This document shows, piece by piece, positions 27,063 to 60,185 of a DNA stretch of 64,000 bases. Each line of letters begins with the position of its first letter. Within the stretch, counting starts at the first letter, position 1. Position numbers and translations under genes: made by a program. The DNA is from Saprospiraceae bacterium. Its GTDB lineage: Bacteria; Bacteroidota; Bacteroidia; Chitinophagales; Saprospiraceae. The DNA lies in the NCBI GenBank assembly GCA_020629615.1, contig JAHDCZ010000004.1, forward strand, positions 1 through 64,000. The letters run 5' to 3'. Under the pieces are notes generated by a model, which was not told where the DNA came from, ran no database searches, and saw only the letters and a list, made by a program, of their open reading frames with translations.

Positions 27063-29750
27063 ATGATGAGACTAATTCAATTTTTCATAATACTATTTTT
27101 GACCTTTGGTCTTGTTTCGGAGATTTCTTCGCAAGCAGAGCTAGAAGCTCAGGCAAAAGAAGAGTTGCAAGATTTAGGACACGACGAAGAAGAAGTCAAA
27201 AGACGGATGCTAGAAAAAGGTATTGACCTAGATAATGTCAATACTGAAGATCCTATTCAAGTTCTTGAGGCTGAAAGAACTTTGAAAGTTGTTCTTGCTG
27301 AATTGGAGGCTGAAAAGTTATTAAAGAATGAGGAGTTAATTGACACGATTGTTCCTTTACTTGATATTGAAAAGATATCCATAGATGAAAGTCCTGAAAT
27401 TACTTCTAATGAAGAAAAAGAAGTGGAACAATTAACACCCGAATCAAACATTTTTGGGCAGCACATATTTCAAAATAAAAACCTTAGTTATTTTCAATCT
27501 TCGACAGAATTAAATGTACCCAATACTTATGTTTTGGGAGTTGGAGATAAAATAGCAGTTTCTATATGGGGTAGATCACAACTTAATGAGATTCATGAAA
27601 TTAATAGTGATGGTTCAATTGCTTTAAGCAATCGAGTTCGAGTAAACTTAAGAGGTCTCAATATAGATGATGCCAAAAGAAAGTTAGAAAGGACCTACTC
27701 AAACTATTATCGATTTGGGAAAGGAGAATTTGCCGTTCAAATTTCGCAAACCAGAAATATTAATATCAATATAGTTGGGGAAGTTATGAATTATGGCAGT
27801 TTCAATTTATCAGCAACCAACAATATTTTTAATGCTTTAATACTCGCTGGAGGTCCTACAAAAATAGGTTCTGTACGAAACATTAGTCTTATACGTCCAG
27901 GAGAGGATGTTAGAAAAATTGACCTTTATGAATACTTATTAAACGAAAACAAACCGCTAGATCTTTATTTAATGGAGAATGACATTATTAATGTACCTGT
28001 TGTGGATCGTTTAGTAGAAATCAAAGGTGGAGTACGTAAACCTTTTATATATGAATTAAAACCAGGGGAAAATCTAAAAAAACTAATTGATTTTGCTGGT
28101 GGATTAAATAGCAATGCAATAAAAAGAAACATTACGATTAAGAGATTCGTCAATGATAGTGAGATCATTCAAAATGTTAACCTTGAAGAATTATTATCGA
28201 GTTCGAAAAATTTTACATTATTAGATGGGGACAAAATAACAGTAAACCTTGTGCCCGACGAATACGAAAATTTTGTAACTATTTCAGGAGCAGTTGATAT
28301 TGAAGGCAACTATTCTATCTCTAACAATACTAGATTGATTGACGTACTTAATAGAGTAAAAATTCAAAGTAACGCTTTAACATCATTAGCTTATATCAAA
28401 AGAAAAGAAAAGGATAAGAAAAACTCTACTTATATCTTTATTAACATTGATAATGTACTAAGTAATCCTCAAGACAAGGACAATGTCATCCTACAACCTA
28501 GAGACGAAATAGTAATTTATTCTCAAGCAAGATATGTTGATGAAGCATTTTTTAGTGTACAAGGAGCTGTCAGAGAACCAAGCGAATTTATTTTGGATAA
28601 TAATGGAAAAATCAGCGTGGATCAAGCTATTTACCTTGCGGGAGGGTTAAGAAAAGATGCTACGGACTTTGCATATATAAAACGACGAGATACTAACAAT
28701 GCTATTGAGTACATAAGAATAGATCTTAACAACGCTCAAGACAGGCCTATTCTTAAGGCCAATGATGTTTTACATATTTATAGCTCCATTGATTATACTG
28801 ATGAAAGCTTTGTTAGTATTGGTGGAGCGGTTCGGCAACCGGGTCAATTTCAGTATGACGAGTCTCTTAGATTAAAAGATCTCGTTACCTTAAGTGGTGG
28901 ACTTAAAATGGAATCAGCCCCATATCGAATTGACATTTACAGACTAAACTTTGATGATAAAAATAAAAGTAAAACCTTGGCTGCAACGGTAGCAATTGAT
29001 AAAGATTTTAACTTATTTGGACAGGATGAATTCGTACTAAATCCATTTGACCAAGTGTATGTTCGGAATGCTCCTGAGTTTGAATTTCAAAAAACAATTA
29101 GGATAGAAGGAGAAATAAAATTTGAAGGACCCTATGCTTTATTACAAGATAATGAAAGAGTTTCATCTGTTATCGAACGTGCAGGAGGACCAACCAAAGA
29201 GGCATTCTTAGAAGGTGCAACCTTGTTCAGAGTTGATAATAATATGGGCTATGTTATCCTTAATTTGAAAGAAGCATTGAGTAATACGAATTCTAATCAA
29301 AACCTGTTATTAAAAGCAGGAGATATCATTTCTATTCCCAAAAATAGAGACCTTGTGACAATTCTTGGAGAATCACGAGTTTCTGAATTATATTCTGAAG
29401 AAATAACAAATCAGGGCAAAATTAATGTTGCATTCCACAAAAATAAAAATGCCAAATTCTATATTGATGAATATGCTGGTGGGGTTGGAAAAAATGGCAA
29501 AAAAGATTTAATTACCGTTACTTATCCTACAGGTGAAGTCAAAAGAGCAACTCGGTTTCTTTTTTGGCATAATTATCCTGAAGTCAAACCAGGTTCTATT
29601 ATAAGAATCGGCAAAAAGCCAGTTGAAGTTAAAGATATTAGGAGCGATGGAACAGAAGAAAAAACAGATTGGAGTAAAGTTGTTGCCGACTCAATAGGTC
29701 AAGCTACAGCCATACTTTCATTAATACTTTTACTACAAAGAGTTGATTAA
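27063..29750 (+). CDS. SLBB-domain polysaccharide export protein (Wza-like)
   Basis: The 895-residue protein has a signal peptide (no lipobox cysteine), an acidic coiled region to about residue 140, then the export domain (YVLGVGDKIAVSIWGRS near residue 152). About seven SLBB-type repeats follow, each of the form I-x-G-x-V-x-x-P-G with a later AGG; examples are VGEVMNYGSFNLSATNN and IGGAVRQPGQFQYDES. A C-terminal hydrophobic segment (QATAILSLILLLQRV) can cross a membrane. Wza-type proteins form the outer-membrane channel for capsule or exopolysaccharide. The start follows the metH stop with no gap, and ATGATG gives two possible start codons. Confidence 0.9.
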   Translation: MMRLIQFFIILFLTFGLVSEISSQAELEAQAKEELQDLGHDEEEVKRRMLEKGIDLDNVNTEDPIQVLEAERTLKVVLAELEAEKLLKNEELIDTIVPLLDIEKISIDESPEITSNEEKEVEQLTPESNIFGQHIFQNKNLSYFQSSTELNVPNTYVLGVGDKIAVSIWGRSQLNEIHEINSDGSIALSNRVRVNLRGLNIDDAKRKLERTYSNYYRFGKGEFAVQISQTRNININIVGEVMNYGSFNLSATNNIFNALILAGGPTKIGSVRNISLIRPGEDVRKIDLYEYLLNENKPLDLYLMENDIINVPVVDRLVEIKGGVRKPFIYELKPGENLKKLIDFAGGLNSNAIKRNITIKRFVNDSEIIQNVNLEELLSSSKNFTLLDGDKITVNLVPDEYENFVTISGAVDIEGNYSISNNTRLIDVLNRVKIQSNALTSLAYIKRKEKDKKNSTYIFINIDNVLSNPQDKDNVILQPRDEIVIYSQARYVDEAFFSVQGAVREPSEFILDNNGKISVDQAIYLAGGLRKDATDFAYIKRRDTNNAIEYIRIDLNNAQDRPILKANDVLHIYSSIDYTDESFVSIGGAVRQPGQFQYDESLRLKDLVTLSGGLKMESAPYRIDIYRLNFDDKNKSKTLAATVAIDKDFNLFGQDEFVLNPFDQVYVRNAPEFEFQKTIRIEGEIKFEGPYALLQDNERVSSVIERAGGPTKEAFLEGATLFRVDNNMGYVILNLKEALSNTNSNQNLLLKAGDIISIPKNRDLVTILGESRVSELYSEEITNQGKINVAFHKNKNAKFYIDEYAGGVGKNGKKDLITVTYPTGEVKRATRFLFWHNYPEVKPGSIIRIGKKPVEVKDIRSDGTEEKTDWSKVVADSIGQATAILSLILLLQRVD

Positions 29751-38331: not shown

Positions 38332-39615
38332 ATGGATTATAAAATAGCTGTTATTGGCTTAGGTTATGTGGGTCTTCCTTTAGCTGTAGAATTTGGAAAA
38401 AAATATCCAACTGTTGGATTTGATATTAATCAAATTAGGGTCGATGAACTTAACACAGGCATAGACAGTACACTGGAAGTTGAAAATGAAGAGTTGGCAT
38501 CCGTGCTTGCTTCGTCAAATGATTTTGATAACGATGGTCTTTATTTAACAACCAATTTGGAAGAATTAAAACATAGCAATTTTTATATCGTTACTGTTCC
38601 AACACCTACTGATAAAAACAATCGTCCTGTTTTAATACCACTTAAAAAGGCCAGTGAAAGTATTGGCAAGGTATTAAAGAAGGGAGATTACGTAGTATAT
38701 GAATCAACAGTATACCCCGGAGCAACGGAAGAAGAATGCATTCCTGTTTTGGAAGCTTTCTCTGGATTAAAATTCAACGAAGATTTTTTTGTTGGTTATA
38801 GCCCGGAACGAATCAATCCTGGAGATAAAAAACATACTGTAACGAAAATTTTAAAAGTTACCTCAGGCTCAACCAAAGAAGCAGGAGAAGTAATTGATAA
38901 TCTCTATAGTTCAATTATAACAGCTGGCACTTATCTTGCCTCATCGATAAAAGTAGCAGAAGCGGCCAAAGTTATTGAAAATAGTCAGCGAGATATAAAC
39001 ATTGCATTTGTCAATGAGTTATCCAAAATTTTCAATCGCTTAAATATTGATACACTAGAAGTCTTGGAGGCCGCTGGTACCAAATGGAATTTTTTACCAT
39101 TTCGACCGGGGCTAGTTGGGGGACATTGCATTGGTGTTGATCCATACTATCTTGCTCAAAAAGCTCAAGAAGCTGGTTACAATCCTGAGATCATTCTTGC
39201 AGGTCGTCGCCTTAATGATGGGATGGGAGAATATGTTGTGAGTGAAATAGTAAAACTCATGATTCAAAAAGACATCAAAGTTAAAGGTTCAAAAGTATTA
39301 ATGCTTGGTTTTACCTTTAAAGAAAACTGTCCGGACATTCGAAATACAAAAGCGATAGATGTTTACACTGAATTATTATCATACAATCTAAACATAGACT
39401 TGGTGGACCCATGGGCTTCCCCCGAAGAAGTAGAGCATGAATATGGTATTAAACTTATTAATGAAATTCCAGATTCAACTTACGATGCTATTATATTAAC
39501 CGTTGCACATAATGATTTTAAGTCTTTGAACCTAAATGATTTAAAAAACAGAAACAGTGTTATTTATGATGTAAAATGTTTCTTTGATAAAGATAGCGTT
39601 GACGCTAGATTATAA
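38332..39615 (+). CDS. UDP-N-acetylhexosamine 6-dehydrogenase (TviB/WbpA type)
   Basis: The 427-residue protein belongs to the UDP-sugar 6-dehydrogenases but to a different branch from Ugd. Motifs are [68 protein letters not shown] and the catalytic cysteine in [20 protein letters not shown]. TviB and WbpO of Vi-type polysaccharides share this pattern and make UDP-GalNAcA or UDP-GlcNAcA. The next gene is TviC-like, so the pair probably makes UDP-GalNAcA. The product can also feed the WbpB/E/D-like enzymes. The exact substrate cannot be read from sequence. Confidence 0.9.
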
Positions 39616-39629
39616 AATATAACTTTGTC

Positions 39630-40598
39630 TTGAGTCAAGAAAGAAAAAATATTTTAATTACGGGAGGTGCTGGCTTTATTGGATCCAATTTAGCCGAAGT
39701 CCTCCTAGAAGATTCACGGGTTAATAAAATTCGAGTCCTTGATGATTTATCAAACGGATTTATTGATAACATCAAGCTGGAACTAGAACATCCGCGCTTT
39801 GAGTTCATTGAAGGGGATATACGAAACTATGAAACCTGTTTAGAGGCTTGTAAAGGAATGGACTTAATATCTCATCAAGCTGCGCTTGGCTCGGTACCTA
39901 GAAGTTTAAAAGACCCTTTAACAAGTAATGCCGTAAACATTACAGGAACATTAAACATTTTTAGTGCTGCAAAAGAACAAAATATAAAGCGCGTTGTTTT
40001 TGCCGCTTCGTCTTCTACTTATGGAGATAGCGAAACTTTACCTAAGGTTGAAAATAATATTGGACAACCCTTGTCGCCTTATGCCATAACTAAGTATGTA
40101 AACGAATTATACGCAAAGGTTTTTGCTAATAATTATAACTTTAAATTTATTGGCCTAAGGTATTTTAATGTTTTTGGGCCTAAACAAGATCCTCATGGTG
40201 CATATGCTGCGGTAATACCCCTTTTTTTTAAAGCAGCTTTATCCAATATGAATCCAACGATAAACGGTAACGGTTCACATAGTAGGGATTTTACTTATGT
40301 AGAAAACGTAATCGAAGCAAACATTTTAAGTCTTTTTACGAGCAATGAAAAATGCCTTAACCAAATATTCAATGTTGCATGTGGTAAAAGGACCACTATC
40401 CTTGAACTTTGGAAGACAATAAAATCTATAACAAATTCTGAATCGCAAGTTGTGTTTGGCCCGAAACGTAAAGGCGACATTCCGCATAGCTTGGCAGATA
40501 TATCAAAGGCTAAATCAATGTTGAATTACAAGGGAGAAATCAATGTAAACGCTGGTTTAGAAAAGTGTCTTGAGTGGTACAAAATCAAATTTGGATAA
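39630..40598 (+). CDS. UDP-N-acetylhexosamine 4-epimerase (TviC/WbpP type)
   Basis: The 322-residue extended SDR protein has ITGGAGFIGSNLAEVLLED, HQAALGSVPRSLKDPLTSN, the catalytic ASSSTYGDS and SPYAITKYVNELYA, and GLRYFNVFGPKQDPHGAYAA. The SVPRS and GPKQDP segments are typical of TviC, WbpP and WbgU, which prefer N-acetylated UDP-sugars. The start is TTG (MSQERK), the only start codon close to the Rossmann motif. It stands 14 bases after the TviB-type gene. Confidence 0.9.
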   Translation: MSQERKNILITGGAGFIGSNLAEVLLEDSRVNKIRVLDDLSNGFIDNIKLELEHPRFEFIEGDIRNYETCLEACKGMDLISHQAALGSVPRSLKDPLTSNAVNITGTLNIFSAAKEQNIKRVVFAASSSTYGDSETLPKVENNIGQPLSPYAITKYVNELYAKVFANNYNFKFIGLRYFNVFGPKQDPHGAYAAVIPLFFKAALSNMNPTINGNGSHSRDFTYVENVIEANILSLFTSNEKCLNQIFNVACGKRTTILELWKTIKSITNSESQVVFGPKRKGDIPHSLADISKAKSMLNYKGEINVNAGLEKCLEWYKIKFG

Positions 40599-42129: not shown

Positions 42130-43491
42130 GTGAATTACAGCTCTTTTATTTCTGGGTATTATCGCAAACTTAAATCGAATGCAGCGACTCATTTAGTAAT
42201 TGCAGGTACACTTACAACTACGACTTTATTTATTCTAAATATCTTGTTTGCTAGAATATTTACTAAACATGATTATGGTACTTATAGACAAATTCTATTA
42301 GCTATCCAATTTATCGTTCCATTATTCACATTAGGAATTCCTGAAGGATTTAAATATTTAATAGCCAAAGACAAAGAGGAAACGAATACAATATTTAGTT
42401 CTACACTTAGTCTTTCTCTAGTAATGTTTTTAATTATGGGTATCGGTGGGATATTCGGCTTACTGTCTTGGATTGGCGTTGTATTAAATAATCCAGTAGT
42501 TGGTGAATTGAGTTATACTCTACCCGTTTTTTATATTCTACTCATAATAAACAATGTTTTAAAATATCAAGCAATTAATGATGACAAATCATCTTATGTT
42601 ATAATATCTAATTTTTTTTCAGCATGTGTTCTCGGTATAGGTGGAGGATATATCCTATTAAACTACAACAACTTGCTGGAACGAGATTTATTCTTTTTAT
42701 TTCTCATTGCCCTACTTGGTTTAAATTATTTGTTTTCAGCATTGGTCTTTCTATGGAAACTTGAAATAATTAAACAGTTTAAATTTAAAATTGACCTCAA
42801 TAAGATTAAATCGATTTTACTTTTCGGGATACCTCTTTATTTAGCAGCGTATATTGGTGTCTTCACCCTAAATATTGATAAGCTTATTATTTCTAATCAA
42901 GGAAGTACTGAACTCTTCGCGATTTATGCGGTTGGCGCTGTACAAATTCCGTTTATTGGAATTATAAGTACCGCGGTAACGAATTCGATTTTTCCAAAAA
43001 TGGTTAGTGCCTTAAATAACACTTCTCAAGAAGCAAAAAAGATATGGCTGACTGCAACCTTGAATTCGTCATATGTAATTTACCCTATGATCATCGGATT
43101 ACTTATTTTTTCCAAACCATTAATAATTTTATTTTTCGGTGAATCATATATTGAAGCTGTCCCTGTATTTAGAGCATATTTATTAATTATGATTTGGAGA
43201 AACAACTCTTATGGATCCATTTTAACCGCCCAAGGAAAAACGAAATACATTACAATGTATTCTGGTCTCACACTTATACTGAACGGAATATTATCATTTA
43301 TTTTATTTAAAAAGCTTGGTATCATCGGTGTAGTATATGGCACTTTTCTTTCTGTTTCTTTTATTGCTTTTTTACAACTAGCCCATGAAAATATGCTTCA
43401 AGGTTTTTTTAGAAAGTTCTATTTGAATCCAGCTATTTTTTGTTTGTTATTAACCATTTTTTCTATTTATGGTTATTTGACCTTTGGTTAA
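42130..43491 (+). CDS. Wzx-like oligosaccharide flippase (MOP superfamily)
   Basis: The 453-residue polytopic protein has about 12-14 hydrophobic segments. The N-terminus ([36 protein letters not shown]) is typical of Wzx-like flippases, which move lipid-linked repeat units across the inner membrane. The start is GTG; no earlier or nearer ATG fits. It starts 34 bases after the WbpB-like gene. Confidence 0.85.
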
Positions 43492-50265: not shown

Positions 50266-51270
50266 ATGTTTACAAATAAAACTCTTTTAATCACTGGGGG
50301 AACAGGTTCTTTTGGTAATGCCGTTCTGAATAGATTTTTAGATTCTGATTTAAAGGAAATTAGAATCTTCAGTCGAGATGAAAAGAAGCAAGATGATATG
50401 AGAAGGCGGCTTCAAAATAATAAAGTTAAATTTTTTATAGGTGACGTCAGAGATTATAATAGCATAGAATACGCAATGAGAGGAGTGGATTTTGTATTCC
50501 ACGCGGCAGCACTTAAACAAGTTCCATCATGCGAATTCTTTCCCGTGGAAGCGGTAAAGACAAATGTCCTTGGCGCAAACAATTGCATGGAAGCGGCAAT
50601 AAAAAATAATGTGAAAAGAGTAGTTGTTTTAAGTACAGACAAGGCCGTTTATCCAATCAATGCCATGGGAATGTCTAAAGCTCTTATGGAAAAAACTATG
50701 GTTGCTAAATCTAGAAATGCGAACAATACTGTTTTATGTGGCACTAGGTATGGAAATGTTATGGCATCCAGAGGATCCGTAATTCCTCTTTTTGTAAGCC
50801 AAATAAAAGCTGGAAAAGATATTACTATAACGGATCCTAATATGACAAGATTCATGATGACTTTAGAAGACGCTGTAGATCTAGTTCTTTTTGCGTTTGA
50901 AAATGCTAACCCAGGAGATATTTTTGTTCAAAAATCTCCAGCTTCTACTATAGAAACATTGGCGGAAGCTTTAAAGTCACTATATACTTCCCAAAACGAA
51001 ATAAAAATTATTGGAACAAGACATGGGGAGAAACTCTATGAGTCTTTAGTCAACAGAGAAGAAATGGTTAAGGCGGAAGATCTTGAAAACTATTACAGAA
51101 TTCCTGCTGACAATAGAGATTTAAATTATGAGAAATACTTCTCTTCTGGAGAAAAGGATGTCTCAAAAATTGAAGATTATCATTCTCACAATACAACAAG
51201 ATTAGACGTAGAAGGAACAAAGAATCTACTTTTAAAATTAGATTTTATTAAATCTGATGTCCAATCTTAA
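50266..51270 (+). CDS. capE: UDP-GlcNAc 4,6-dehydratase/5-epimerase (CapE/FnlA/WbjB)
   Basis: CapE makes the first intermediate of UDP-N-acetyl-L-fucosamine from UDP-GlcNAc. The 334-residue protein has LLITGGTGSFGNAVLNRFL, IFSRDEKKQDDMRRRL, FVFHAAALKQVPSCEFFPVE, VVLSTDKAVYPINAMGMSKA and TRYGNVMASRGSVIPLF. In the catalytic motif the usual SDR Tyr is Met (MGMSK), as is typical of this branch and unlike the 4,6-dehydratases with YxxxK. The genes capF and capG follow. It overlaps the next gene by 14 bases. Confidence 0.93.
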   Translation: MFTNKTLLITGGTGSFGNAVLNRFLDSDLKEIRIFSRDEKKQDDMRRRLQNNKVKFFIGDVRDYNSIEYAMRGVDFVFHAAALKQVPSCEFFPVEAVKTNVLGANNCMEAAIKNNVKRVVVLSTDKAVYPINAMGMSKALMEKTMVAKSRNANNTVLCGTRYGNVMASRGSVIPLFVSQIKAGKDITITDPNMTRFMMTLEDAVDLVLFAFENANPGDIFVQKSPASTIETLAEALKSLYTSQNEIKIIGTRHGEKLYESLVNREEMVKAEDLENYYRIPADNRDLNYEKYFSSGEKDVSKIEDYHSHNTTRLDVEGTKNLLLKLDFIKSDVQS

Positions 51271-51694
51271 AATATCATGGTCTTTGATTGAAGGGCATGT
51301 TCACCAAGATGATAGAGGTGAATTGCGATATAACAATAAGCTTTCATTGAAAACAGTCAAGAGATTTTATCAAATCACTTGTAAAGAAACCAATACTATA
51401 CGAGCCTGGCAAGGGCATCAATTTGAATCCAAATTCTTTACTGTCTTAAATGGTCGTTTCGAAATTAATCTAATTAAAATAGACGATTGGCAAAAGCCAT
51501 CTATCGAACTAAAAATAGATAAACTAACCCTTGATTGTACTAAACATCAAACTCTAGTCGTACCTGGTGGATTCGTTACTGGCATTAAAAATTTGGAGCC
51601 AAACGCTAAGCTTTTAGTTTTTTCTGATACAACCCTAGAAAAATCTCTAGAAGATGATTTTCGGTTTGATAAAAATTATTGGAATCCCTGGTAA
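51257..51694 (+). CDS. Cupin-fold sugar epimerase/isomerase-like protein (WxcM-like)
   Basis: The 145-residue protein has an RmlC/WxcM-like cupin pattern: GHVHQDDRGELRYNN, RAWQGHQFESKFFTVLNGR and HQTLVVPGGFVTGIKNLEP. In RmlC the matching region carries a catalytic His, which here may be in GHQFE. It lies between capE and capF with overlap to capE, so it probably acts on the same L-FucNAc pathway or on a variant sugar. The precise reaction is unknown. Confidence 0.75.
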   Translation: MSNLKISWSLIEGHVHQDDRGELRYNNKLSLKTVKRFYQITCKETNTIRAWQGHQFESKFFTVLNGRFEINLIKIDDWQKPSIELKIDKLTLDCTKHQTLVVPGGFVTGIKNLEPNAKLLVFSDTTLEKSLEDDFRFDKNYWNPW

Positions 51695-51708
51695 ATAAAA
51701 TTGAAAGA

Positions 51709-52815
51709 ATGAAAATTGGAATTACTGGACAATATGGATTTATAGGTAGACATCTTTATAACTATCTAAATTTGAAAGAAGAAATCAGTCTAATTAAATT
51801 TGAAAGAGATAGTTTTTCAAATCCTTCTAAACTAGATTCTTTTGTTTCAACTTGTGATGTTATTGTTCATCTGGCGGCACTAAATCGACATGAAGATCAA
51901 AACGTTATCTACTCTGAAAACCTTAAGTTGGTCCATAAGATTATTAATTCGTGCGAAAAAACTAATGCAACACCTCACATATTGTTTTCATCATCAACTC
52001 AGGAGGATCAAGACAATTTATATGGGCAATCCAAAAAAGAAGGACGTTTATTGTTAGAATCATGGGGTCGTAAAAATAATGCAAAAACCACTGGAATCGT
52101 TATACCAAATGTTTTTGGTCCATTCGGTAAGCCGAACTATAATTCTGTCGTTGCCACATTTTGCCATAAACTAGTGAATAACCAAACCCCAGAAATTCAT
52201 GTTGATGGTAATTTGAAACTAATTTATGTTAACAAACTCGTTTCAGAAATTTCTAATTTGATTTTTACTGGTGTAGAGGGTAAGGTTTCAATTCCTCATC
52301 AATATGAACTTAAAGTATCTGAACTTTTAAAAAGTTTAGAAGACATTAAATCTAAATATTTGGTCAAAGGCGAATTTCCCTCATTAATGAGTCCTTTTAA
52401 ATTGGACTTATTTAATACCTTTCGATGTTATGTTCCTCACTCATATTATCCTAAAGCATTTATTGAACACAAGGACAATCGTGGCGCCTTTGTAGAAATT
52501 GTTCGAGCAAACACCACCGGTCAATTTTCCTTTTCTACGACCAAACCAGGAATTACTAGAGGTAATCATTTTCATACTAGAAAAGCAGAAAGATTTGCTG
52601 TCATTAAAGGAAAAGCAAGGATTGATTTAAGAAAGATAGATTCTGAAGAAGTAATCTCTTATGAACTAGATGGTTCCAATCCATCTTATGTTGATATGCC
52701 TATATGGTATACACACAATATTACTAATATCGGTAATGAAGAACTACTTACTCTATTTTGGATTAATGAACCTTATGATCAAGATAATCCTGATACTTAT
52801 TTTGTAAACGTATAA
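51709..52815 (+). CDS. capF: CapF/FnlB bifunctional epimerase-reductase with cupin domain
   Basis: CapF performs the 3-epimerisation and 4-reduction steps to UDP-N-acetyl-L-talosamine. The start is set at the ATG giving MKIGITGQYGFIGRHLYNYL; a TTG 30 bases upstream overlaps the preceding gene and adds nothing family-like. The 369-residue protein has an N-terminal SDR domain (LFSSSTQEDQDNLYGQSKKE with Tyr and Lys) and a C-terminal metal-binding cupin (TRGNHFHTRKAERFAVIKGK), the known CapF layout. Confidence 0.92.
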   Translation: MKIGITGQYGFIGRHLYNYLNLKEEISLIKFERDSFSNPSKLDSFVSTCDVIVHLAALNRHEDQNVIYSENLKLVHKIINSCEKTNATPHILFSSSTQEDQDNLYGQSKKEGRLLLESWGRKNNAKTTGIVIPNVFGPFGKPNYNSVVATFCHKLVNNQTPEIHVDGNLKLIYVNKLVSEISNLIFTGVEGKVSIPHQYELKVSELLKSLEDIKSKYLVKGEFPSLMSPFKLDLFNTFRCYVPHSYYPKAFIEHKDNRGAFVEIVRANTTGQFSFSTTKPGITRGNHFHTRKAERFAVIKGKARIDLRKIDSEEVISYELDGSNPSYVDMPIWYTHNITNIGNEELLTLFWINEPYDQDNPDTYFVNV

Positions 52816-52821
52816 TTCAAA

Positions 52822-53967
52822 ATGAATACTAAAAAATTTAAAGTTGTATCCGTTGTAGGAACTAGACCAGAAATCATAAGATTATCTCGAGTTTTGGCCG
52901 CCTTAGATAACTCCCATGCAATAGAACATGTTCTTGTCCACACTGGTCAAAACTACGATTTCGAACTAAATGAAATATTCTTCAATGACTTAAATGTAAA
53001 AAAACCAGATCACTTTCTCAACGCTGCTGGAAATTCTGCAATTAATACCATTGGTAATATTATTTCTGCTATAGAGCCAATTCTAAGACAAGAAAGTCCT
53101 GACGCTTTTCTTGTCTTAGGAGATACGAATAGTTGCCTTTGCGCTATTCCTGCCAAAAAAATGAAAATTCCTGTTTTTCACATGGAGGCTGGAAATCGAT
53201 GTTTTGATTTAAGGGTGCCCGAAGAAATCAATAGAAGAATCGTAGATCACGTTAGTGATATAAATTTAACGTACAGTTCCATAGCGAGAGAATACTTACT
53301 TCGCGAGGGGCTTTCGCCCGAACGGGTTATTAAAACGGGAAGTCCCATGTACGAAGTTTTAAGCTTTTATAAAAACAAAATTGATTCCTCTAATGCGTTG
53401 AATAAATTCAATCTTCAAGAGGGTAAATACTTTGTAGTGTCTTCACATAGAGCCGAAAATGTCGATACAGATAGACAATTTCTTAAAATAGTGAACATTA
53501 TAAATTCTGTTGCCAAGACATATGATTATCCTGTTATTGTTTCAACTCATCCACGAACTAGAAAAAGAGTGGAACAGTTAAAGGTTAGTTTTCATCCAAA
53601 TGTTAAGCTTTTAAAACCATTGGGGTTTTTCGATTATGTTCGGTTACAAAAAGATGCAAAGGCTGTTTTATCCGATAGCGGAACCATATCTGAAGAATCC
53701 TCAATTCTAAACTTTCCAGCACTTAATATTCGAGAAGCTCATGAAAGACCGGAAGCAATGGAAGAAGCCTCGGTTATGATGGTAGGCCTTAACGTTGAAA
53801 GAGTCATGCAAGGGATGGCTGTTCTTGAAAACCAAAAACGCGGAAAAGAAAGGTCATTAAGAGAAGTTGATGATTATTCAATGCCTAATGTCTCTGATAA
53901 AGTATTACGAATTCTACTTTCGTATACTGATTATATAAATAGGACTGTTTGGTCTAAAATTTCTTAA
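52822..53967 (+). CDS. capG: UDP-N-acetyl-L-fucosamine 2-epimerase (CapG/FnlC/WbjD)
   Basis: CapG finishes UDP-N-acetyl-L-fucosamine by 2-epimerisation. The 381-residue protein is of the WecB fold: SVVGTRPEIIRLSRVLAALD, HTGQNYDFELNEIFFNDL, HMEAGNRCFDLRVPEEINRR, SDINLTYSSIAREYLL and LSDSGTISEESSILNFPALN. The WbjD-type segment AGNRCFDLRVPEE separates it from plain WecB. It directly follows capF, completing the pathway. Confidence 0.92.
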   Translation: MNTKKFKVVSVVGTRPEIIRLSRVLAALDNSHAIEHVLVHTGQNYDFELNEIFFNDLNVKKPDHFLNAAGNSAINTIGNIISAIEPILRQESPDAFLVLGDTNSCLCAIPAKKMKIPVFHMEAGNRCFDLRVPEEINRRIVDHVSDINLTYSSIAREYLLREGLSPERVIKTGSPMYEVLSFYKNKIDSSNALNKFNLQEGKYFVVSSHRAENVDTDRQFLKIVNIINSVAKTYDYPVIVSTHPRTRKRVEQLKVSFHPNVKLLKPLGFFDYVRLQKDAKAVLSDSGTISEESSILNFPALNIREAHERPEAMEEASVMMVGLNVERVMQGMAVLENQKRGKERSLREVDDYSMPNVSDKVLRILLSYTDYINRTVWSKIS

Positions 53968-53968
53968 A

Positions 53969-54916
53969 ATGAAGTATTCAATCATTCTATTAATAATTAT
54001 TTGCTTTTCATTTGGGTGTCAAACGTCTAAAAGCATTAGCGCTCGTGCTGATGTCGGAATGGATACTTATGAAATATCTGGTTTTAAAGTTTTTACTTCC
54101 TTAGCCGGAGTTTCTCCTAAAATGAAGGCAAAATTAGAATCTAAGAATATTAAAAAGGCAATTCTTGTTAATGGTGGAGCAATTGACAATCCAAAATCCT
54201 ATTCCGTCGATTACGCCAAAATCAAACAGTATTTAGAAAGAGTATTGCCAAATCCAAAATCTACTGCGCTAGTTGTCATTGATATAGAAGGCCAAAAGAT
54301 GATTAGTTTAAATCGAGCTGAAACAAATAAGTCTTTTAATCAAACGTTAAATTATTATTTAGAAATTCTTAGATATTTTAAGAACCTAAGACCAGAAGCA
54401 ACAATTGGGTTTTATGGTTTTCCTTGGAGGAATTATTGGAACCGAAACAAAAGCTGGAAAGAAAAAAACGATAAACTTTTACCATTAATTGAAGAAATGG
54501 ATGCTGTCTTTCCCTCCGTTTATGATTTCTATGCAGATGATATTGATGTTAACAAAAGAAGTGACGAAGCATATATTCGAGAAAATATTGAAGAAAGTTT
54601 ACGTTTAGCAGAATCGACCAATAAGCCGGTATATCCATTTGTTTGGCATCGATATCATAATAGTAACAAAAAAAGAGGAATGACTTTTATTGATGACACA
54701 GAGTTTCAAAATTCAATTAAAACGATTGTTTCCACAAAGTATAAGGGCAAAAGAGTTTCAGGAATAATTTGGTGGAGCAGTGAACGATACTTTTATAATG
54801 TTAGCCCAAGAGGAAAAAAAAATAAGTTTTCTGAACAAGATTTCAATCACTTTTTTGATGAAAACAGTTCTAGATATATTGATCTTATAACAGAGGGAAT
54901 TAAAGATGGTCTATAA
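53969..54916 (+). CDS. Lipoprotein resembling GH56 hyaluronidases
   Basis: The 315-residue protein has a lipoprotein signal ending FSFGC (Cys17). The mature part reads like a TIM barrel and shares by eye the order of family GH56 motifs. There is a strand ending VVIDIE (Asp105, Glu107; GH56 has a catalytic D-x-E), then RPEATIGFYGFPWRNYW (near 141-157), DAVFPSVYDFY (178-188), RENIEESLRLA, KPVYPFVWHRYH and SGIIWWSS. GH56 enzymes cleave hyaluronan-type polymers. I infer a periplasmic or outer-membrane glycanase or modifying lyase of the polymer made here. The similarity is judged without a search and may only reflect a shared barrel. It starts one base after capG. Confidence 0.6.
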   Translation: MKYSIILLIIICFSFGCQTSKSISARADVGMDTYEISGFKVFTSLAGVSPKMKAKLESKNIKKAILVNGGAIDNPKSYSVDYAKIKQYLERVLPNPKSTALVVIDIEGQKMISLNRAETNKSFNQTLNYYLEILRYFKNLRPEATIGFYGFPWRNYWNRNKSWKEKNDKLLPLIEEMDAVFPSVYDFYADDIDVNKRSDEAYIRENIEESLRLAESTNKPVYPFVWHRYHNSNKKRGMTFIDDTEFQNSIKTIVSTKYKGKRVSGIIWWSSERYFYNVSPRGKKNKFSEQDFNHFFDENSSRYIDLITEGIKDGL

Positions 54917-54938: not shown

Positions 54939-56243
54939 TTGAATAAACAACCTTTAAATACCACAACTAGTTTATTGAATAAGCTGTTCTCAACTAAAAT
55001 TCTAGGGAATATCTCTTTACTTCATTTTTGTTTATTGGTTTTTGCATTCCCAATTACATCGGCTATACCCGTGTTGTTTAGCATTCATTCTACTCCTTTC
55101 AATATTGCCTTGCGAACTTTATACTTGTCAATGAGCATCTTCTTAATTCTTGGAGGGATTTTAAGAAAAGAAGCGCATCGTTTTTCAATTGGTTGTTGGT
55201 TAATCATAATATTTTGGATTTTGTATGCCGTTCGGTTAGTCTACGATAGAGAATTTCTTGGTATTCGTTTTAGTTCTTATACTCCGTTTAAATTCTATTC
55301 ATTTGCTTTCGGAAATGGGTTTTTAGCAGCACTTGCGGGTATTTTAACTATGCGTTTCGTAAATATATATAAAGCCAAAAAATTTATCTTTCTAACAATT
55401 CTTCTTTCTAATATCTCAATACTCTTGATATGCGTTTATCTGTTCAAAACAATTAATCCAGTTGATCTTGGTGCTAGATTGAGTTTTACTTTTGAACTAG
55501 ATGGTAAAAAAATGGATATTCTAAATCCAATTACAATAGCTTATCACGGAGAACTTTTAGCGCTTCTTTCATTGATCTCCATAAGCGGTCGAAAATGGCA
55601 ACATTCATTACTTTTTTCTGGATTCTTTATTTTGGGATTATTTGTTCTTCTCCTTGGAGCATCACGAGGTCCTCTAATTTCCTTCGCCGTTATTTCTTTT
55701 TTTATATTAATCGCAAAATTGTATACGGCGCGTAAATCATCTGTTTTCTTTGCCAAACTATTTGCCTATCCAATTGTGGCCTTATTTATTTTTCTTTACG
55801 GTATTGCGCCAAAAATAGATTGGTCTAATTTGACTGTTTTTAAAAGAATAGAAGCTTGGATGACAGGTTCATACGCTGCATCTTTGGATAATCGTGATGA
55901 TAAATATCTATTTGCTTGGAATCAATTTGTTGAAAATCCAATTATTGGTGATCAATTTGTAGACAAATTAGGTGGATATCCACACAATTTGTTCTTAGAA
56001 TCTTTAATGGCTCTTGGGTTAATAGGAGGATCGATTTTCTTTTCATTGATAATCTATACGCTTTATAAGGTTTTCTTTTTAGTTATTAATAAATATCAAC
56101 TTCTTGAATTTTCAATACTATCCTTATCGGTAATCTTAGCAAGTATTACATCAGGAAGTTTATTTGCCAGCTATGGCTTTTGGATAGTTTTAGCATATTT
56201 TGCTGGTATATCGCGCAAAAATTATAGTGAATTAAAACCATGA
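54939..56243 (+). CDS. O-antigen ligase/polymerase-like membrane protein (Wzy-like)
   Basis: The 434-residue protein has about 10-12 hydrophobic segments and the periplasmic-loop hallmarks of the Wzy/WaaL superfamily: LLGASRGPLISF, IEAWMTGSYAASLDNRDDKY, NPIIGDQF and GGYPHNLFLESLMALGLIGG. It polymerises or ligates repeat units in the periplasm. With Wzx- and Wzz-like proteins present, the Wzy role is most likely. The start is TTG, and no ATG lies nearby that keeps the first membrane segment. Its stop overlaps the next gene by ATGA. Confidence 0.85.
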   Translation: MNKQPLNTTTSLLNKLFSTKILGNISLLHFCLLVFAFPITSAIPVLFSIHSTPFNIALRTLYLSMSIFLILGGILRKEAHRFSIGCWLIIIFWILYAVRLVYDREFLGIRFSSYTPFKFYSFAFGNGFLAALAGILTMRFVNIYKAKKFIFLTILLSNISILLICVYLFKTINPVDLGARLSFTFELDGKKMDILNPITIAYHGELLALLSLISISGRKWQHSLLFSGFFILGLFVLLLGASRGPLISFAVISFFILIAKLYTARKSSVFFAKLFAYPIVALFIFLYGIAPKIDWSNLTVFKRIEAWMTGSYAASLDNRDDKYLFAWNQFVENPIIGDQFVDKLGGYPHNLFLESLMALGLIGGSIFFSLIIYTLYKVFFLVINKYQLLEFSILSLSVILASITSGSLFASYGFWIVLAYFAGISRKNYSELKP

Positions 56244-59495: not shown

Positions 59496-60185
59496 ATGCT
59501 ATTCAATAGCCATGAATTTATTATGCTCGTTGTATTAAGCTCTGTGCTTTTTTTCAATGTGAAGTCAATACAAAACTGGATATTGATTCTATTCAGTTTT
59601 GTCTTTTATGCCTTTAATTCTCCAATAATTCTTTTATTATTTATTTTTTGCATTGGTATAAATGTTGTCACTAGTTATTTCGTAGTGCGTAAAAATTTGC
59701 ATCCTAAAAAGATAGCAACACTTAGTGTACTTATAAATCTACTCATTCTTATTTTCTTTAAATACAGCCAATTAGTTGTTGACACTTTTTTTACAAATGG
59801 TTTTTCTGTCCGTCACAAGCTTTCGCAAATACCCCTTCCAATTGGAATATCGTTTTTTACATTTCAAGGGATAGGTTTGTTAGTAGATACCTTTCGAAAT
59901 AAAATTAATCCTGCGCATCAATCTTTGGTTCCTAAAAGTTTTAAGTATGCTTTCTTTCCGCAAATTGTGGCAAAACCAATTGTGCAAGCAAAAGGGTTAT
60001 CAATACTAAGTTTATTATGGACATTGAAATACAAAGCGTATCTTAAAACGCTTTTTGTTTATATTTTGCCTCAATATCCCTGCGGAAACCGAATTTCAAC
60101 AGATTGGGTTCTTTTAAATCAAACTAGTGCAAAAGAATTATCGACTCAAATAGTAAATGATCTTAAAGCAATTAGCTGTTCATAA
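59496..60185 (+). pseudogene. Truncated MBOAT O-acyltransferase
   Basis: The 229 residues match the N-terminal half of AlgI-type membrane-bound O-acyltransferases: LFNSHEFIMLVVLSSVLFFN, NWILILFSFVFYAFNSP and LPIGISFFTFQGIGLLVDTF, ending at FFPQIVAKPIVQAK. In full proteins of about 470 residues a long membrane region with the catalytic His comes next. Here the sequence changes to about 60 residues of no recognised family (KAYLKTLFVYILPQYP onward) and stops. I infer a deletion or rearrangement, and the enzyme should be inactive. The next gene begins three bases after the stop. Confidence 0.65.

Follow-up and report, generated by a model that had tools for sequence, protein, structure and literature searches.

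A GH56 lipoprotein gene beside a Wzy-type polymerase gene in a Saprospiraceae polysaccharide locus, and its likely action on the locus's own polymer

In the literature that we found, glycoside hydrolase family 56 (GH56) is a family of animal and venom hyaluronidases. Its fold is a (β/α)7 barrel (PMC12254123), and Glu113 of the bee enzyme serves as proton donor, with the N-acetyl group of the substrate, positioned by Asp111, Tyr184, and Trp301, as the nucleophile (PMC4619011). Hydrolases encoded in polysaccharide-synthesis clusters also have precedent (PMC9075953). Here we describe a GH56-like lipoprotein gene at positions 53969 to 54916 on the forward strand of a 64,000-nucleotide stretch (positions 1 to 64,000 of contig JAHDCZ010000004.1, assembly GCA_020629615.1) from a Saprospiraceae bacterium, the whole of which we call the window. 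From the computed family, fold, residue identities, operon position, and repeated link to Wzy-type polymerase genes, we infer that its product is likely to be a catalytically active GH56 lipoprotein glycosidase, probably periplasmic, whose role is to act on the polymer that its own Wzx/Wzy-dependent locus produces. Our search of the open-access literature, subscription papers and the CAZy site lying outside it, yielded no paper on a bacterial GH56 protein, with such a role or otherwise; a Fulvivirga literature match for GH56 was set aside as very probably false ("GH5" with the reference number 60 run on after it). Databases may well label such proteins "hyaluronidase" already.

The open reading frame (ORF) runs from ATG to stop over 315 amino acids, exactly at the position given in the original prediction, and all of the segments quoted there were found in the translation: VVIDIE (residues 102 to 107), RPEATIGFYGFP (141 to 152), PSVY (182 to 185), and KPVYPFVWHRYH (219 to 230). 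The likeness to GH56, which had been judged by eye, turned out to be far beyond chance. The protein matched PF01630 (GH56) in Pfam with an E value of 9.2e-16 and 58.1 bits, against a gathering threshold of 23.2, residues 120 to 275 being the best-matching stretch, and its first PDB match with phmmer was bee hyaluronidase (2.7e-5). A profile of nine bacterial relatives matched the bee, wasp, PH-20, and HYAL1 hyaluronidases in the PDB at 4e-11 to 2e-8, followed at 0.1 by an unrelated protein as the fifth match; besides the bee, wasp, and human hyaluronidases, the PDB sequence searches gave nothing convincing. An NCBIfam search with the protein gave no match.

Built from nine aligned bacterial proteins, an AlphaFold2 model (mean predicted local distance difference test score, 79.7; predicted TM score, 0.79) has seven successive barrel strands by our reading of the DSSP string, as expected for the (β/α)7 barrel of GH56. 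GH56 structures took all of ranks 1 to 6 in both structure comparisons, with E values of 1.4e-13 (1fcu) to 3.4e-10 in Foldseek, where the next fold came at 5.7e-5, and with Z scores of 18.9 to 22.9 in VIA-align, where the next fold came at 12.9. The top VIA-align match (Z 22.9) had a root mean square deviation of 2.6 over 248 residues. Other barrel families (GH5, GH26, GH18, and PgaB) were ruled out, all of them falling far below GH56 in both comparisons. Together with GH56 as the top fold, the catalytic residues matched as the original prediction had anticipated: the D-x-E motif, Asp105-Ile106-Glu107 (codons at 54281 to 54289, forward strand), aligned with Asp111/Glu113 of the bee enzyme and with the wasp pair, in alignment blocks that are small and not significant alone and that are colinear with the main match.

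By sequence alignment, Tyr149 and Tyr185 correspond to bee Tyr184 and Tyr227, and wasp Trp296 aligned with Trp269 (phmmer against the PDB), which is probably the counterpart of bee Trp301. The tyrosine to which hyaluronan specificity has been tied (PMC4619011) is the one kept here as Tyr185. In the model, the C-terminal end of the third barrel strand holds Asp105, and later strands have Tyr149, Tyr185, and Trp269 at their ends or just beyond; the placement of Asp105 and Glu107 over the cleft is shown only indirectly, by the strand assignment and the alignments. By every defining test of sequence and structure that could be run, the 315-amino-acid protein is a member of GH56. If it works as the bee enzyme does, it would be a retaining glycosidase in which Glu107 protonates the glycosidic oxygen and the substrate's own 2-acetamido group, positioned by Asp105, Tyr149, and Trp269, attacks the anomeric carbon, giving an oxazolinium that would be resolved by water or another sugar.

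The gene is not peculiar to a single draft genome; GH56-like genes were found at about 15 more bacterial loci, mostly in the family of the window organism and thinly elsewhere in Bacteroidota. A bacterial-protein profile search found relatives in 12 of the 398 genomes of the same family; they also occur in a second family of the same order (three genomes) and are rare in the rest of the phylum. Most bacterial relatives passed PF01630 as well, and none of 14 control genomes matched in a PF01630 search. Eukaryotic contamination of the assembly was ruled out because the gene is intronless and follows a bacterial epimerase gene at a distance of 1 base, and because many other Bacteroidota genomes, one of them assembled as a single contig (G470), hold relatives of it. 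A plasmid or phage origin was ruled out too, the plasmid and phage collections giving no match; one distant relative lies in a viral contig. Three weak matches (G1114, G139, and L011) were not accepted as members, and we read the L011 frame as an FAD-linked oxidase-like protein.

Residue conservation was counted over 18 aligned bacterial and viral-contig sequences, with the window protein included. Glu107, the PSxY motif, and Trp269 are present in all 18, Tyr149 in 17, and Asp105 in 16. The middle residue of the D-x-E motif is Ile in the window protein and Trp in most relatives, and His227-Arg228 marks the main bacterial group, a smaller group having Pro-Gln. Several relatives are unusual in their architecture or setting. 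Five GH56-like domains are clustered in one polysaccharide locus (L040, 6263 to 11549), three of them within a single 868-amino-acid protein, and among these copies the D-x-E motif degenerates from DIE to NIE, NIQ, and SIP. Two diverged GH56-like genes with one glycosyltransferase-like gene between them share another polysaccharide locus (L018, 8822 to 11496), and an IS3-type transposase gene lies directly upstream of the GH56-like gene in a third locus (L017, 6445 to 7428). The GH56-like region of a 1,432-amino-acid protein (L038, 5547 to 9842) is N-terminal and keeps DIE, and the C-terminus of this protein weakly matches a type IX secretion sorting domain. The distant protein of the viral contig, which is GC rich and comes from IMG/VR (L041, 4296 to 5789), falls below the Pfam threshold and keeps D-M-E, PSLY, and WW.

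Nearly all of the GH56-like genes lie in polysaccharide-synthesis loci. Fourteen further gene neighborhoods were examined beside the window locus, and 13 loci were informative, counting the window and leaving aside L013 (truncated contig) and L038 (unrelated secreted fusion). A Wzy_C gene is the direct neighbor in eight of the 13 (the window, L015, L016, L017, L019, L034, L035, and L037) and is one gene away in L018, L036, and L040, so that in 11 of 13 at most one gene intervenes; the Wzy gene of L039, recognized by its similarity to that of the window, is three genes away. All 10 neighbors tested beside other GH56-like genes scored above the Wzy_C cutoff. The window's own, a Wzy_C-type polysaccharide polymerase/O-antigen ligase gene immediately downstream (54939 to 56243, forward strand), scored 25.5 bits for PF04932, below the cutoff of 31.7, and 38.3 bits when scored with its frame neighbors. 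The surrounding genes vary among the loci, and the GH56-Wzy link persists, also in diverged relatives. This link is not due to chance, since Wzy_C genes number only two in the genome of the window organism; a rough binomial probability given a 30-gene polysaccharide locus was 4e-7, or 3e-5 with three syntenic loci counted once, both figures assuming independence and a guessed locus size.

Such a close link to Wzy suits joining as well as cutting. The protein could therefore be a transglycosylase rather than a hydrolase, with a sugar hydroxyl resolving the oxazolinium and with Wzy-made chains being joined, anchored, or cross-linked; mammalian and venom GH56 enzymes do transglycosylate under specific conditions (PMC11669647). 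However, members of the family have mainly been described as hydrolases, and the sequence does not tell joining from cutting, and we consider a transglycosylase in place of a hydrolase unlikely, the main reading being a glycosidase that cuts, or transglycosylates, the new polymer.

The position directly after capE-capF-capG, as originally predicted, agrees with the genes at 50266 to 53967 (these and the upstream genes named below are all on the forward strand). They encode an FnlA/CapE-like UDP-N-acetylglucosamine (UDP-GlcNAc) 4,6-dehydratase/5-epimerase (50266 to 51270; TIGR04130, 588 bits, below the cutoff of 730), a WbcJ/FnlB/CapF-like reductase (51679 to 52815; Pfam Polysacc_synt_C; NF047837, 266 bits, below the cutoff of 500), and a WecB/CapG-like UDP-GlcNAc 2-epimerase (52822 to 53967; Epimerase_2, E value of 6.6e-97; TIGR00236, above the cutoff), with a gene for an FdtA/WxcM-like sugar isomerase-fold (cupin) protein (51257 to 51694; weak Pfam matches) inserted between the first two. 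A single base separates the epimerase stop from the GH56-like ATG, and 22 bases separate the GH56-like gene from the Wzy gene. Farther upstream are genes for a Wza-type outer-membrane polysaccharide export protein (27063 to 29750; Poly_export and SLBB domains), a TviB-like UDP-GlcNAc 6-dehydrogenase for a 2-acetamido uronic acid donor (38332 to 39615; NF011729, 580.7 bits, just below the cutoff of 592), a TviC-like C4-epimerase of UDP-N-acetylglucosaminuronic acid (39630 to 40598; best match NF011728, 324 bits, below the cutoff of 760), and a Wzx-type flippase (42130 to 43491; Polysacc_synt_3). Downstream, at 59496 to 60185, an ORF of 229 amino acids encodes an MBOAT-like O-acetyltransferase; this copy looks like a broken remnant, since it matches only the first 175 or so residues of its 469-amino-acid relative in L015.

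The FnlA/CapE-, FnlB/CapF-, and WecB/CapG-like genes resemble those for an N-acetyl-L-fucosamine-type donor, and the TviB- and TviC-like genes resemble those for 2-acetamido uronic acids such as N-acetylgalactosaminuronic acid. The exact sugars are approximate because all of these genes except that of WecB score below the curated equivalog cutoffs. Sugars of this kind match what substrate-assisted GH56 chemistry requires, and the cutting or trimming of an amino-sugar/uronate polymer, as first proposed from the sequence, fits a locus with TviB/TviC- and FnlA/B/C-like genes. The substrate would then be the polymer made by the neighboring genes, attacked at a β-linked N-acetylhexosamine-type residue, and the effect may be to set chain length, to release chains, or to clear chains stalled in the periplasm.

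The lipobox Cys17, shared by each of the nine proteins in alignment A1, upheld the lipoprotein assignment; some of the remaining relatives either lack this Cys or have an uncertain start. In other Bacteroidetes, an acidic signal for surface export of lipoproteins has been described (PMC5080379). The residues after Cys17 (QTSKS) do not carry such a signal, nor do those of the other proteins in alignment A1, and on these grounds we lean toward the periplasmic face of the membrane, where the exported lipoprotein would be held. The location also bears on whether the enzyme could be a scavenging hyaluronidase or chondroitinase that acts on the glycans of other organisms, as might be supposed from the retained Tyr185 (PMC4619011) and from the GH56 members described in the literature consulted, which act on hyaluronan or chondroitin. 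However, the operon is one for polysaccharide synthesis, not uptake; the neighbors examined, not every one of them scanned, showed no SusC/SusD-like gene; the surface-export signal is lacking; and the placement beside Wzy is repeated in diverged relatives. Scavenging thus appears improbable, and it is probably the organism's own coat that is trimmed rather than host tissue, because the gene lies in a sugar-polymer assembly operon beside the polymerase gene.

Several observations weigh against an enzyme devoted to the polymer of its own locus. In L014, no Wzy gene lies within 20 kb, and in L038 the GH56-like region belongs to a large secreted protein outside any polysaccharide-synthesis locus. 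The identity of the GH56 proteins follows that of the Wzy proteins only in part (Mantel r, 0.60; P = 0.002; n = 12), and species relatedness could be behind this correlation. Surface exposure is possible, since the acidic export signal has not been established for Saprospiraceae. Finally, some GH56-like members may not be catalytic, as the Asp is lost in L039 and most of the L040 copies, and these losses would suit a GH56 fold without catalytic function whose task is to bind or guide the growing polymer. The window protein and most relatives, however, keep Asp, Glu, Tyr, Tyr, and Trp, a full set that binding alone would not require, and we give an idle fold little credence here.

A bacterial branch tied to polysaccharide polymerases would give GH56 a second, biosynthetic setting and would bear on the origin of the animal hyaluronidases. 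It would also offer disulfide-free enzymes for cutting 2-acetamido-sugar polymers and add a further candidate to the question of why polysaccharide-synthesis clusters encode their own glycosidases. More tentatively, and with the balance somewhat against it, the whole bacterial branch may be a dedicated partner of Wzy that cuts or transglycosylates each new chain in capsule or exopolysaccharide assembly, the animal hyaluronidases being specialized secreted relatives in a family with a wider role on 2-acetamido-sugar polymers.

Among known systems, the window protein shares its fold with the GH56 enzymes Api m 2 of bee (1FCU/1FCQ), Ves v 2 of wasp (2ATM), human HYAL1 (2PE4), and PH-20 (9JUB), and it has in common with them the D-x-E pair and the counterparts of Tyr184 and Tyr227, at about 17 to 19% identity. 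Unlike them, it is a bacterial lipoprotein encoded in a polysaccharide-synthesis operon; the insertion that follows the FYGFP strand in the bee enzyme is replaced by a short loop, and the bee Tyr-Lys by His227-Arg228, a pair often found in the bacterial group. Disulfides are typical of the animal GH56 enzymes and are neither catalytic nor family defining. The mature domain of the window protein has no cysteine, Cys12 and Cys17 both belonging to the signal peptide/lipobox, so the animal-type disulfides are absent; we treat this as a difference from the animal branch, not from the family definition. The C-terminal glycoside hydrolase domain of PgaB is likewise a triosephosphate isomerase (TIM) barrel that acts on an N-acetylglucosamine polymer (PNAG) within its own synthesis operon, but it is clearly more distant than GH56 in the fold list (Z of about 12) and, unlike the window protein, belongs to a two-domain protein with a deacetylase. 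PslG and AlgL, of the Psl and alginate operons of Pseudomonas aeruginosa, come from families other than GH56 and have roles with experimental support, whereas the role of the window protein is predicted. As is predicted for it, they are glycan-cutting enzymes encoded together with synthesis machinery, and they act at least partly in the periplasm, its predicted location. By this analogy, its role may be comparable to those of PslG and AlgL (PMC9075953).
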